From Candidatus Harrisonbacteria bacterium (GTDB lineage Bacteria; Patescibacteriota; Minisyncoccia; UBA6257; WO2-44-18), in NCBI GenBank assembly GCA_016182295.1, contig JACOXP010000011.1, forward strand, positions 1 to 35,050: 35,050 nt of DNA, read 5' to 3'. Numbering within the stretch: the first letter of the stretch is position 1; the number at the start of each line of letters is the position of its first letter. The notes below the pieces were generated by a model, which was given only the letters and a program-made list of their open reading frames with translations, was not told where the DNA came from and ran no database searches. Shown piece after piece: positions 2,857 to 24,560 of this stretch. The translations under genes were made by a program, and so were the position numbers.

Positions 2857-2966
2857 ATAATTCTAAATTTTGAAAATAAAAATGCCTCGCAGGATTACTC
2901 CTGCGAGGCACATGAATTGTGTCCAACCGTCCAACGGTCTAGGACTCGCACACGACGAGAAAACGA
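2857..2966 (-). repeat. 110-bp 3' module, copy 1 (tail codons + 3' UTR + terminator)
   Basis: About 106/110 identical to 23190..23299 by direct comparison. Confidence 0.9.
2872..2910 (-). terminator. intrinsic terminator
   Basis: Minus strand TGCCTCGCAG-GAGTAATC-CTGCGAGGCA followed by TTTTTATTTT. Confidence 0.85.
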
Positions 2967-2977
2967 TCGCCCTCACC

Positions 2978-3211
2978 CTACTCAAACCCGTCCCAATCGA
3001 GGCTCAAGTACCGCCCGCCGCCTGGGGCGGTGACGGCTTTGTGGCCGCAAACCCGCCGGAACTCTTCACGGTTCACTCCCTGCAGATTTGCGCAAAGCAA
3101 ATCCGACAACAGACCGGACTCCAGCAGGTCCTGCAACTGTTTAGCAGGCGTCTGCTTTTGCAGGATCAGGTTCAGCACCTGATTCCCTTGTGCCAAGGTT
3201 GCGTCTTTCAT
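2978..3211 (-). CDS. small hypothetical protein sharing a C-terminal tail with 23272..23865; in-frame TAG precedes the conserved tail
   Basis: SD (AAGGGAG) before ATG; ends SLDWDGFE*, then same-frame GEGDRFLVVCES* to 2939. Confidence 0.6.
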   Translation of the reverse strand: MKDATLAQGNQVLNLILQKQTPAKQLQDLLESGLLSDLLCANLQGVNREEFRRVCGHKAVTAPGGGRYLSLDWDGFE

Positions 3212-3372
3212 CGCAACTCCCTTCTTTAAAAGTGCTTACCGCGAACTCTCGCGATCAGACCCTTAAGAAACCTTAAGTTGCCCAAAGATTAACATATTCA
3301 ATAAAATTAATCAACCTCGCCTCTAGTAAGTTCAACAAGTAAGCGCGCCTCTATCCACTCTCTTCAGCAGCG

Positions 3373-4055: not shown

Positions 4056-4739
4056 CTAATCTCTTAAAAACTCTCGGCCCCAGCCGCAGTATTCACATTC
4101 GCCGTGGGTTTTTGGCATCGGGCCTTTGATGACTTCTACCGCTTCTCGCAAAACTCTGACCGCTTCATTTGGGTCAATGGTCACTCTTTTCGGCACCACT
4201 TCAAATTTCACCATCCCGTTTTCAGACACCACGCTTGGGAAATAATATATAAGGTAAGCGTAATTGTCGGGCTTCATGTTATTTTCTCTAAGCAAAAGTC
4301 CGTAGCAGTTGAGTTGATTCTGATAAAAACTTTCGCCGCCTTCCTTCGGAGGAAAACCCCGAGTTTTATAGTCCAATGGAATAAAGAGTTTTTTGGAATT
4401 TATTCCGAGGTCGTCCAAAGCGCCGCTCAAAGTGGCGCCGCTTTCCGGATCGCTCCAAGTAAGTCCGGTGCGCCAATTGCGCCATTTATTTAAAAGCTCG
4501 ATATCGGCAAAAAGCTCCGCGTCAATTTTTCCATCCACTTCCGGCGGCATTTTCCCAACTTCGCGGTATTTATCGAAATAATCTTTAATGACCAAATCCA
4601 TTCCGCCCGGCAAAGAAGGGAAAATCCCCCGCGGCCGGTGGATGTTTTCTTTTTGATCAAGCCAAAAGCATTTCGGACATTCTAAGAAAACATTAAGCGC
4701 CGAGGGTGAGAGCCGGATTTTGCCGTCTTTAGAAACCAT
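4056..4739 (-). CDS. PD-(D/E)XK (Cas4/RecB-like) nuclease with putative Fe-S cysteines
   Basis: LSPSALNVFLECPKCFWL, GALDDLG...IPLDYKTRG, NQLNCYGLLL, CEYCGWG. Confidence 0.75.
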   Translation of the reverse strand: MVSKDGKIRLSPSALNVFLECPKCFWLDQKENIHRPRGIFPSLPGGMDLVIKDYFDKYREVGKMPPEVDGKIDAELFADIELLNKWRNWRTGLTWSDPESGATLSGALDDLGINSKKLFIPLDYKTRGFPPKEGGESFYQNQLNCYGLLLRENNMKPDNYAYLIYYFPSVVSENGMVKFEVVPKRVTIDPNEAVRVLREAVEVIKGPMPKTHGECEYCGWGREFLRD

Positions 4740-4765
4740 TTGTCTTATTGTACTATAATAGTTCT

Positions 4766-5209
4766 ATGAACGCATTAGCGGAAAATAGAAAAGCTTTCTT
4801 CAATTACGATATTATTGAGACCCTCGAAGCGGGCATTGAACTCAAGGGCTTTGAAGTAAAAGCGGTAAAAGCCGGCAAGGCGAGCATCGTCGGCGCTTTT
4901 GCGACTATGAAAGGCGGGGAAATTTTTTTAACCAATGCCGATATCCCGCCCTATCAGCCCAACAACACTCCCTCCGGTTATGAGCCGACCCGCCCGCGCC
5001 GGTTGCTTCTAAAAAAATCGGAAGTTAGCTACCTAACAGGAAAGCTCCAGGCCGAAAGGTTGACATTGGTGCCAATAAAGTTGTATACTAAGGGCGGTCG
5101 GGTGAAAGTAGCGCTCGCCTTGGCCCGCGGAAAACGGAAATATGAAAAGCGGGAAAAGATCAAAAAGCGCGAGACCGAGAAAGCCATCCGACGGACGTTA
5201 AAAAAATAA
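4766..5209 (+). CDS. smpB: SsrA-binding protein SmpB
   Basis: NRKAFFNYDIIETLEAGIELKGFEVKAVK; start taken as ATG at 4766, 6 nt after TATAAT. Confidence 0.93.
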   Translation: MNALAENRKAFFNYDIIETLEAGIELKGFEVKAVKAGKASIVGAFATMKGGEIFLTNADIPPYQPNNTPSGYEPTRPRRLLLKKSEVSYLTGKLQAERLTLVPIKLYTKGGRVKVALALARGKRKYEKREKIKKRETEKAIRRTLKK

Positions 5210-19739: not shown

Positions 19740-21107
19740 TCACAATTCCTCGGCCATGCCCTCATCGGGAACTTTGGCGTCAATTCCAAATTGATCGCTT
19801 ATTTTCTTCGCCAAAATCATCGCTTGATCTTCTTCGCCCTGCACCGTAAATACTTTTTTTAGGGTCGCTTTCATCGGTTTGATCCAGTCAAGCAATTGAG
19901 GCTGGTCCGCGTGGGCGGAAAAAGAACCAATGGCCTTTATATTACAGCGCACCGGCACATCCTCGCCGTGGATTCTCACATTGAATGGCTTGCCGGATTT
20001 CTTGCCATCCAAAATCTGGCGGCCAAGCGATCCCCTCGCTTGAAAACCAACTATTAAAAGCGTGCTCTTGGGATCGGGAAGATATCTCTTTTCATGGTGA
20101 AGAATTCGGCCGGCGGTAGACATTCCGGCTCCGGCAATAATCACTTTCGGCGACGGCACATCGTTTATCGCTTTTGATTCTTCGGTGGTCATCGTCAGTT
20201 TCAAACCGGGAAAACTGAAAATCGCGTCCCCGCCGCGCAATTGGTCTTGAGCTTCTTTATTGAAATATTTTGAATGCTTTTTATAAATTTCCGTTAGTTT
20301 AATGGCGAGGGGGCTGTCTAGAAAAATAGGGATCTTCGGTATGCGGCCGCTTTCGGCAAGATTATTGATATCAAATAAAAGATGTTGGGTCCGCTCCATC
20401 GCGAAAGCCGGAATCATTAAAGTGCCTCCGTTTTTTATTGTTTCTTCGATTAAACTTTTAATAACGCCTTCTCGTTCCTTAATCGGTTCGTGAATTCTTC
20501 CGCCGTAAGTGGATTCAACAAGACAATGAGTGGCACCCTCGGTAAGGTTTTCCCGAGCGTTGATAATTGGCGCTGGCGAGTTTCCTAAATCGCCGGAAAA
20601 AATCACTTTTTTATTTTCAGCTTCGACAACAATAAAGCTCGATCCCAAAATATGACCGGCGTCGTAAAAAGTGGCGGTGAAACTTTTACCAACTTTTATT
20701 GACTTGTGATATTCAACGCCTTCCCAGCGCGCCATTAATTCTTCAATGTCTCTCACGCCATACAACGCCGGCAACCGAAAACGCTCGGCGTCTTGAAGCA
20801 GTATATGTTCCGAATCAAGAAGCATTTCTCTGGCGAAATCACGGGTCGGCGGAGTGGAATAAACCTTGCCGACAAAGCCGTCTTTCACCAACTTCGGTAA
20901 ACGGCCGGTGTGGTCTATATGGGCATGGGTTATCAAAACCGCCGATATTTCCGCCGGATTATAAGGGAAATTTTCCCAGTTGTGTTTTTCGCAAAAATTG
21001 CTCCCCTGGTGAAGACCGCAGTCAATCAAAATTTTCTCGCCACCCGATTCCAACAGATAATTGGCGCCAGTAACCATTTTGGCCCCGCCGTGAAAAGTTA
21101 GTGTCAT
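19740..21107 (-). CDS. MBL-fold beta-CASP RNase-like metallohydrolase
   Basis: LITHAHIDHTGRLPKL, DAGHILGSSF, STYGGRIHE, IGSFSAHADQPQL. Confidence 0.92.
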   Translation of the reverse strand: MTLTFHGGAKMVTGANYLLESGGEKILIDCGLHQGSNFCEKHNWENFPYNPAEISAVLITHAHIDHTGRLPKLVKDGFVGKVYSTPPTRDFAREMLLDSEHILLQDAERFRLPALYGVRDIEELMARWEGVEYHKSIKVGKSFTATFYDAGHILGSSFIVVEAENKKVIFSGDLGNSPAPIINARENLTEGATHCLVESTYGGRIHEPIKEREGVIKSLIEETIKNGGTLMIPAFAMERTQHLLFDINNLAESGRIPKIPIFLDSPLAIKLTEIYKKHSKYFNKEAQDQLRGGDAIFSFPGLKLTMTTEESKAINDVPSPKVIIAGAGMSTAGRILHHEKRYLPDPKSTLLIVGFQARGSLGRQILDGKKSGKPFNVRIHGEDVPVRCNIKAIGSFSAHADQPQLLDWIKPMKATLKKVFTVQGEEDQAMILAKKISDQFGIDAKVPDEGMAEEL

Positions 21108-22306
21108 TTTCTAAGGATATCACGAACAACTTCCGCTTCGTTCCAGGAAATGGTCTTGCCGTGGGCTATATGAATAGAGGTTTCACTGCCCTTTCCGGTG
21201 AGAATTGCCGTATCACCCGGTTTGGCGGAATCAAGAGCCTGGCGAATTGCTTCTTTGCGATCTAAAACTTTAAAAACTTTCGGCCCCGGCAAAATTCCCG
21301 AAGCGATTTCATCTAGAATGGCGGTGGGGTTTTCGTCATAGGGATCCTCGTCGGTCAAAAAAATAAGTTTGCAATATCGTGAAGCAACCTTGCCCATCAC
21401 CGGACGCTTCCATTTATCCCTTCCTCCTCCCGCCGCTCCCAAAACACAAATTAATTTTTTACCGCTATCCCGCGGGGTGGCGGCCAGGGATTTATAAATT
21501 TGCTCGAGCGAATCCGGAGTATGAGCGTAATCTACCACCACCCGAAATGGCTCTGGTTGAATCGTTTCCATTCTACCCGGCACACCTTTGAAAAAAGCCA
21601 GCGCTTGCTTGATAACGCTCCAAGAAATCCCCTGCGATTTGGCAAAGGCAGTCGCGGCGGCGGCGTTTTCCAGATTAAAATCGCTCGAAAGCCAATCGCC
21701 GATTGATTCGCTTCCTTTGTTTAATTCGTTTTCGATAAATTTTTCGCGGCTAAAAAAAACAACTTCGCCAGAACCGCTTGCTTCGGCAAAATAGCGGGCG
21801 TTTTCGTCGGCTTCGTTTATAAAGAAAAGTTTGCGTCGATGGGTGGCAACGTATTCAAAAAAGCTCAATTTGGCGTTGCGGTATTTTTCGAAGGAGCCGT
21901 GGGATTCGATATGCTCCGGGTGAAGATTTAAAAATATCGCCGCGTCCCAATCAATAAATTTATGGCGATACTGGCCAAAACCCTGTGAGGTTGCCTCAAT
22001 AATGGCGTATTCACATTTTTTATTTACGGCTTTTCTCAAAAAACTTTGGAGCGCGAGGCGGCCCGGCATGGTATTGCCGGTCGTGTTTTTTTGATTTTCC
22101 TCGTCGATTTTAAACCGAATCGAAGACGTAAGAGCTGTTTTCTTTCCCGCTTTTTCCAAAATGGCGTTAATCAATTCCACTACCGTGGATTTTCCTTTTG
22201 TTCCCGTAATTCCAATCACAAAAATTTTCCGGGAGGGGTTTCCGTAAATAACATTACCTAAAAATGCGAGGCACCAATGATAAATACTTTTTAGAAAGGA
22301 AATCAT
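21104..22306 (-). CDS. short MurE-like UDP-N-acetylmuramyl-tripeptide synthetase
   Basis: GITGTKGKSTVVELI, NLHPEHIESHGSFEKYRNAK, VVDYAHTPDSLEQI. Confidence 0.85.
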   Translation of the reverse strand: MISFLKSIYHWCLAFLGNVIYGNPSRKIFVIGITGTKGKSTVVELINAILEKAGKKTALTSSIRFKIDEENQKNTTGNTMPGRLALQSFLRKAVNKKCEYAIIEATSQGFGQYRHKFIDWDAAIFLNLHPEHIESHGSFEKYRNAKLSFFEYVATHRRKLFFINEADENARYFAEASGSGEVVFFSREKFIENELNKGSESIGDWLSSDFNLENAAAATAFAKSQGISWSVIKQALAFFKGVPGRMETIQPEPFRVVVDYAHTPDSLEQIYKSLAATPRDSGKKLICVLGAAGGGRDKWKRPVMGKVASRYCKLIFLTDEDPYDENPTAILDEIASGILPGPKVFKVLDRKEAIRQALDSAKPGDTAILTGKGSETSIHIAHGKTISWNEAEVVRDILRK

Positions 22307-23089: not shown

Positions 23090-23118
23090 ATTATAATACA
23101 AGCATATACCAATGTCAA
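23090..23118 (-). promoter_or_regulatory. perfect sigma70 consensus promoter TTGACA-N17-TATAAT
   Basis: Minus strand TTGACATTGGTATATGCTTGTATTATAAT. Confidence 0.88.
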
Positions 23119-23167
23119 GCTTTAGCTTTTTTAAGAGCCTCTTTCAAACGTTCCTTGAATCCTTCTA
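23113..23167 (-). repeat. duplicated ruvA 3' end (remnant copy)
   Basis: 54/55 identical to 23977..24031; encodes GFKERLKEALKKAKA*. Confidence 0.92.
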
Positions 23168-23189
23168 ATTCTGTGTCGTCATTTTTATA

Positions 23190-23299
23190 ATAATTCTAAC
23201 TTTTGAAAATAAAAATGCCTCGCAGGATTACTCCTGCGAGGCATATGAATTGTGTCCAACCGTCTAACAGTCTAGGACTCGCACACGACGAGAAAACGA
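23190..23299 (-). repeat. 110-bp 3' module, copy 2 (includes terminator)
   Basis: About 106/110 identical to 2857..2966. Confidence 0.9.
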
Positions 23300-23865
23300 C
23301 AGTCCCCATGCCAGTCAAACCCGCACCAATAGAGGCTCGAGTCCCACTCGCCGCCAACGAGCCAGGCGCAAGGAACGCCACCCCAGAAGCCAAGAAGTAC
23401 GATGGGGTACTTTCTCAGCTCACCGGGGTTGGCCGCTATGAAAGCGCGAAATTCCGGCTGGGTGGCAGGGCGTTCCCCGGCTTTCTTAAATTCGGAGATG
23501 GCGTCCTCGGAGCTAATCCAACGATTGAAATGGCGAAGCTTCATGTTGAGCTCGACCCTGTCGCCTCGCTTGTCACTCGGGAAATGCTTCTCGTTGATGT
23601 CATCGTTCTTCCGGTCATACTTCCCGGCGGAGATCATCTCTGCCCGGGATTTGGAGTAATCCACGACTACCTTGAAGAGGTTGCCGACGACTTTCTTTCC
23701 GTCCATCATCAGAGCCCCGATCTTCTTTCGAAGCTCGGGATCGGTCTCGAGGCGGCGAAGATCCTCATCGGACCCGCCTGCATCCGAAACCGCATTGGAG
23801 AGGGCCTTGAAGACCCTCGCGCACACATCGAACGCCGAAACGAACCGACTCTTTTTCTGAGCCAT
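23272..23865 (-). CDS. hypothetical protein with conserved C-terminal tail (..RFLVVCES)
   Basis: SD GGAGG before ATG; terminator downstream; shared tail with 2978..3211. Confidence 0.7.
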   Translation of the reverse strand: MAQKKSRFVSAFDVCARVFKALSNAVSDAGGSDEDLRRLETDPELRKKIGALMMDGKKVVGNLFKVVVDYSKSRAEMISAGKYDRKNDDINEKHFPSDKRGDRVELNMKLRHFNRWISSEDAISEFKKAGERPATQPEFRAFIAANPGELRKYPIVLLGFWGGVPCAWLVGGEWDSSLYWCGFDWHGDCRFLVVCES

Positions 23866-23976
23866 AACACACCTCCATTTTGGCCTGCCTTCTAGTCCGA
23901 CGAAATGCCGAACTCCAAGGCCTACCTGCTTTGATTGTCAAATTACCTGCCCATCCTAACACAAATAAACCTATTT

Positions 23977-24031
23977 TGTCAGGCTTTAGCTTTTTTAAGA
24001 GCCTCTTTCAAACGTTCCTTGAATCCTTCTA
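23977..24031 (-). repeat. ruvA 3' end, genuine copy of the duplication
   Basis: Within ruvA; 54/55 identical to 23113..23167. Confidence 0.92.
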
Positions 24032-24560
24032 TTTTTGGATCAATTCTAGAAATGGCGTTTTTGGCTTGCTGTTTGGTGTAACCGAGCGAAACCAAAGTTT
24101 CTTCAAGTTCCAAATCCGATTCCATTAAGTTGAGAGTGGTTTTGGGGGACGAACCGGAGGTCAGCTTACCCTTAAGATCAATGACTACTCGCTCGGCCGT
24201 TTTCCTCCCCACGCCTCCGGCCCTGGTCAGCAAGTCCACCTTCCCTTCATTAATAGCGACAACCAACTGATCTATTGGAGCGACATTGAGAATAGCCATC
24301 GCCGTGCGGGGCCCGATGCCGCTGACCGTGTTCAATCTTTCAAAAAGATACAGCTCTCCTTCAGTCATGAAACCATAAAGCTCAAACGGCTCGTTTTCCC
24401 TATTATAGAGCGAACAGAAAAGTTTGATATTGGAGCCGATTTGCGCTAAACTTTGGGCGGCTCGCTGGGACAACAATACCTTAAAACCGATCCCCGCCGA
24501 CTCCAAAACAATAAAACCCTCTTTTTTGCCCGCTAATTTGCCAGAAAGCGAATAAATCAT
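23979..24560 (-). CDS. ruvA: Holliday junction DNA helicase RuvA
   Basis: MIYSLSGKLAGKKEGFIVLE, VSGIGPRTAMAIL, RAGGVGRKTAERVVIDLKGKL. Confidence 0.93.
   Translation of the reverse strand: MIYSLSGKLAGKKEGFIVLESAGIGFKVLLSQRAAQSLAQIGSNIKLFCSLYNRENEPFELYGFMTEGELYLFERLNTVSGIGPRTAMAILNVAPIDQLVVAINEGKVDLLTRAGGVGRKTAERVVIDLKGKLTSGSSPKTTLNLMESDLELEETLVSLGYTKQQAKNAISRIDPKIEGFKERLKEALKKAKA

Follow-up and report, generated by a model that had tools for sequence, protein, structure and literature searches.

A stranded DGR target gene between two copies of the ruvA 3' end in a Patescibacteria genome

Results

The DNA inserted behind ruvA in the genome of the tiny, uncultured member of the Patescibacteria studied here contained a stranded target gene of a diversity-generating retroelement (DGR), placed between a promoter-like site and a terminator and bounded by a 55-bp direct duplication of the ruvA 3' end. 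This gene is likely to be a remote target whose master DGR was lost at argS, with the duplication as the scar of a one-off recombination event behind ruvA. The analysed stretch of DNA (hereafter the window) corresponded to a whole contig of 35,050 bases, in a genome of 632 kb distributed over 19 contigs and 91% complete. Its features are listed in Table 1.

Table 1. Features of the ruvA-murE interval and of the argS locus, in window positions.
Feature	Position	Strand	Remarks
murE	21104..22306	-	Adjoins ruvA in five related genera
orf138, 138 aa	22646..23062	-	Additional gene in the ruvA-murE interval; no relative detected
orf138 promoter	23090..23118	-	TTGACA-17-TATAAT, 12/12 consensus; starts in R1
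R1, orphan copy of the ruvA 3' end	23113..23167	-	54/55; ends in TTGACA, which serves as -35 for orf138
3' module (VR end, stop, terminator)	23190..23355	-	Common to 2857-3022
Intrinsic terminator of the cassette	23215..23244	-	13-bp stem
DGR target (variable protein) gene, 197 aa	23272..23865	-	Stranded: no reverse transcriptase (RT) or template repeat (TR) found in the assembly
Variable-repeat (VR) region	23296..23396	-	Poor in adenine (6.9%, against 24.5% elsewhere in the gene)
Cassette promoter	23953..23982	-	CTGACA-18-TAGGAT, TG before the -10; promoter-like site
R2, true ruvA 3' end	23977..24031	-	55-bp copy; end TGACA overlaps the -35 of the cassette promoter
ruvA, intact	23979..24560	-	TIGR00084, 8e-48
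3' module, second copy	2857..3022	-	End of the relic DGR target
Relic of the native DGR target at argS	2983..3211	-	Middle part missing, premature TAG in VR

The ruvA-murE interval

The two copies of the repeat differed by a single base and could be followed in a longer form, D2 (23113-23173 and 23977-24037; 61 nt at 95%). Within their core, 49 nt matched exactly, and nowhere else in the 35 kb did an exact repeat of this length occur on the same strand. Both copies terminated in a -35 box, which belonged to the orf138 promoter in the case of R1 and to the cassette promoter in the case of R2. An Rfam search of the repeat for an RNA element returned only matches far below the gathering scores. 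The preliminary description had reported the duplication with the same coordinates and identity, and its reading of the 23977 copy as the real C-terminus of ruvA, which is intact by TIGR00084, and of the 23113 copy as an orphan tail was reproduced. So was its inventory of the DNA between the repeats (one promoter, one gene and the shared 3' module), in which a strong terminator was found. It had seen the cassette but missed the rest of the extra DNA, namely orf138 and the promoter at the end of R1; likewise, it had seen the gene between the repeats but missed its identity as a DGR target, which is the main result of the present analysis.

Among the relatives, ruvA and murE were adjacent, in some cases overlapping, in five genera (G001, G002, G004, G006 and G007), which thus represent the empty site. 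As the two genes adjoin in these relatives, orf138 is extra DNA as well as the cassette. Extra DNA between ruvA and murE was found in three genomes, those of the window, G005 and G003. In the window it consisted of the cassette and orf138. In G003, a homologue of the window gene with its TR was located directly behind ruvA, on a contig that ends before murE, while in G005 the interval (L042:5588-6023) contained a 99-aa gene that reads as helix-turn-helix, with a 39-nt hairpin-forming repeat on either side (97%). The records L042 and L044 were matched to G005 and G003, respectively, by their identical ruvA results. This comparison, in which the site was empty in five genera and occupied by other cargo in two more, supported the proposal that DNA had been inserted behind ruvA. 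The nearest named relatives by ruvA included Candidatus Harrisonbacteria and a Parcubacteria-group genome; the relatives compared were from other genera, and the empty site is accordingly that of these genera rather than the state just before insertion.

No homologue of orf138 was found in 100 related genomes or in the viral contigs, and family searches gave sub-threshold matches only. The cassette had no match in the viral contigs either, and a viral origin of the segment was rejected on these grounds.

Identity of the gene between the repeats

The product of the 197-aa gene had no match in Pfam, NCBIfam or PHROGs. Homologues were found in 15 of 60 relatives, and sequence comparison with these identifies it as a member of a Patescibacteria family of DGR variable proteins. 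The end of the G003 homologue (L044:6240-6375) had a second copy beyond the gene, 583 bp downstream; of the differences between the two, 15/16 fell on adenines of the downstream copy. Such a concentration of differences on adenines is the DGR signature and designates the pair as variable repeat (VR) and template repeat (TR). TR adenines also accounted for most VR/TR mismatches of the family genes in G004 (25/26), whose gene was the best match of the window gene, as well as in G055 (14/17) and G020 (7/10), and in these three genomes an RT was located 1.0-1.3 kb from the family gene. At five other DGR loci of this clade, with targets not assigned to the family of the window gene, the mismatches at TR adenines were 20/21, 17/17, 17/17, 19/23 and 16/19.

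The family proteins shared a common domain with an RFLAVR-type end, conserved across the alignment, and the VR was placed at the 3' end of the gene, with a conserved terminal coding sequence. The adenine depletion of the window VR relative to the gene body (p = 3e-5) is as expected from adenine-directed mutagenesis, of which it would be an indirect sign, as no TR of this VR was found in the assembly. C-type lectin domains are a known target fold of DGRs. They made up most of the leading PDB matches to the fold model of the window gene product, although the model was weak (pLDDT 59) and the matches non-significant (best E 0.49). Sequence comparison of the product with solved structures gave no meaningful match.

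The cassette promoter resembled those that precede family members in G001 and G003, so that the cassette would have brought its own. The two copies of the 3' module in the window (166 nt, 89% identity) were identical at 79/83 positions after the stop codon. Two targets of G004 (L025 and L032) similarly had a common 3' module including the terminator hairpin and diverged directly after it, like the two copies of the window. TTGGAC/CTGGAC-like motifs were observed within 70 nt after the stop codon in many family members (window 23215-23272; L010-L032 flanks), with 16 matches compared to 1.0 expected in shuffles, a count that is descriptive as the motif was picked by eye. No such motif was present behind the template repeat in L044.

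Proposed recombination at the ruvA 3' end

The segment is best explained as a DGR target gene equipped with a promoter and a terminator, of the remote type that would be diversifiable by a DGR elsewhere in the genome, and its entry behind ruvA as a one-off recombination that would require no dedicated integrase. In the favoured version, the incoming DNA would have had a ruvA end and, behind it, the target gene; recombination would have taken place between this end and that of the resident ruvA, the other side being closed by a non-homologous join, to give the order ruvA end, cassette, ruvA end and resident downstream gene. The order of ruvA then target gene, as in such a donor, exists in G003. 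The 55 bp represent a short homology, which counts against this homologous route; no donor sequence for the cassette insertion was found. The identity of ruvA to its relatives showed no break along the gene that would mark donor DNA, and a mosaic ruvA was accordingly rejected as a sign of it. The ruvA ends of different genera differed far more than R1 and R2, which suggests that the insertion is recent relative to the separation of the genera. The duplication left the ruvA C-terminus and both neighbouring promoters intact, and this may perhaps be the reason for its survival.

Single crossovers that duplicate part of the target locus, and microhomologies of 3-10 bp at illegitimate joins, have been described (PMC3240628). 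The window arrangement resembles such single-crossover or homology-facilitated illegitimate recombination products in having an insert beside a duplicated homologous piece, or one non-homologous join with microhomology; unlike them, it is read from the final arrangement alone, whereas the published cases come from an experiment with introduced DNA.

Template switching or staggered-break repair offers a second route, which we consider possible though not probable: the TTGACA common to the cassette promoter and the end of ruvA would have served to copy or ligate the cassette in, with re-copying or filling-in of the 55 bp. The outcome would match that of the favoured route but need no donor ruvA. 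As the R copies end exactly at TGACA/TTGACA and the promoters of family genes natively begin TTGACAAAT, a microhomology of 5-6 nt at the join is plausible. However, the assembly contained no second cassette copy that could have served as source, and the ruvA-then-target order in G003 makes the homologous route equally possible. The two routes are not separable and, as members of one class, non-site-specific recombination, not exclusive.

The DGR relic at argS

The second copy of the 3' module in the window belonged to a relic that shared 82% identity over its first 60 aa with a G005 gene, the target of a complete DGR; target, TR and RT were all present there and the DGR adjoined argS. On the other side of the G005 DGR were two genes matching window 4056-4739 and 4748-5209, of which the second reads as smpB, and the window showed the corresponding order of argS, the relic, one more gene and then these two counterparts. 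DNA similarity to the G005 target covered 3039-3279 (80%) and, weakly, the VR end, while the middle of the target, the TR and the RT were missing from the argS locus of the window. As G005 has a complete DGR at argS and the window a relic in the same order, the ancestral or master DGR probably sat at argS, judging from this synteny, and has since decayed or been deleted there.

The 2857 copy was also considered as a template repeat and ruled out by its stop codon, its terminator shared with the cassette and its alignment to the syntenic G005 target. Its boundaries (2857..3211), at which the preliminary description had suggested looking for a duplication of a neighbouring gene like that of ruvA, showed none, the copy being the relic of the native target. 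A transposase-like gene (L104:7069-7929) adjoined the complete argS DGR of G005. Within argS of the window, a 31-nt inverted repeat of the GCCTTCGCCAAGGC-type dispersed kind was present (2259-2289 and 2607-2637, 94% complementary).

No RT domain (PF00078) was found in the window genome, and the same search returned RTs in 29 of 60 relatives. The assembly held no candidate copy of a TR for the window VR: beyond itself, the cassette DNA had only two matches, the 2857 copy and a further target gene, located on contig C10. The ruvA cassette is therefore a stranded DGR target, with neither RT nor TR detected in the 91% complete assembly and, with the master DGR most likely deleted at argS, the targets of this genome appear frozen. 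The C10 gene (L006:1762-2187; G000:C10:13264-13686) was a divergent DGR target of the window genome with 8.9% A at its 3' end, and adjoined genes that read as rpsL and rpsG.

That the DGR is still complete, with the 23272 gene as an active remote target and the RT and TR in the unassembled part of the genome, is unlikely. The missing part of the assembly leaves room for it, the VR looks heavily mutagenised, and remote targets are known (PMC8144416, PMC4891356), but only a relic remains at the syntenic argS core locus and the search detected no RT domain.

Assembly and site-specific integration

An assembly artefact, in which the common 49-55 bp led to the fusion of a ruvA-cassette and a ruvA-orf138 strain variant, is quite improbable. 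Although the assembly is fragmented and an exact repeat of 49 nt is short enough to confuse an assembler, the join between the terminator side and R1 is not a shared repeat and must therefore exist in some molecule, and one base differs between the copies.

The preliminary description had offered two readings of the duplication, an integration that regenerates the 3' end of its target gene or a scar. The first would involve site-specific integration or transposition by an enzyme acting in trans, with the 55 bp as an att core or a long target-site duplication restoring the ruvA end. The direct repeat at a gene 3' end, the cargo between its copies, the intact host gene and the different cargo that G005 and G003 carry at this site would all agree with it. 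Yet among 24 family loci searched for flanking direct repeats (ungapped, within 900 bp), only the window cassette had any longer than 14 nt; the 23 others, including the analogous locus behind ruvA in G003, had none. A search of the segment also found no integrase or recombinase, as the preliminary description had stated. Att-like and transposon readings were not supported, for lack of flanking repeats in any other family member, and we regard site-specific integration as very unlikely; the second reading fits, best as a one-off recombination scar. Least probable of all is that Patescibacteria DGR targets travel as promoter-gene-terminator cassettes, which some unrecognised process acting in trans would repeatedly place behind housekeeping genes, leaving long duplications of host-gene ends and seeding remote DGR targets.

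Discussion

The DGRs of Patescibacteria (CPR) form a recognised clade (DGR clade 2, Roux et al. 2021), the targets of which usually have no known domains (PMC8144416). The family described here resembles them in the VR at the 3' end of a domain-less target and, in relatives, in the adenine-specific TR/VR mismatches and the nearby RT. In contrast to these systems, the window target stands alone behind ruvA, with no RT or TR found. Remnant targets in genomes without RT and TR, as well as remote targets, have been described in Treponema denticola (PMC4891356), and the window gene is comparable to both, to targets that remain after the loss of RT and TR and to targets far from the core module. It differs from the T. 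denticola cases in that its contig also contains a syntenic relic of the core locus, and in the duplicated end of a neighbouring gene that bounds the target.

Each part of this arrangement is of a known kind, and their combination is clear but modest: a useful case study rather than a new system. A gene without domain annotation is now identified as a DGR variable protein, and the two loci provide a worked case of DGR decay, in which one genus has the complete element at argS, another has a relic in this position, and a remote target is stranded. The scar behind ruvA represents one way in which a housekeeping gene can acquire a remote target as its neighbour and remain undamaged, because the duplication preserves the ruvA end and both neighbouring promoters.
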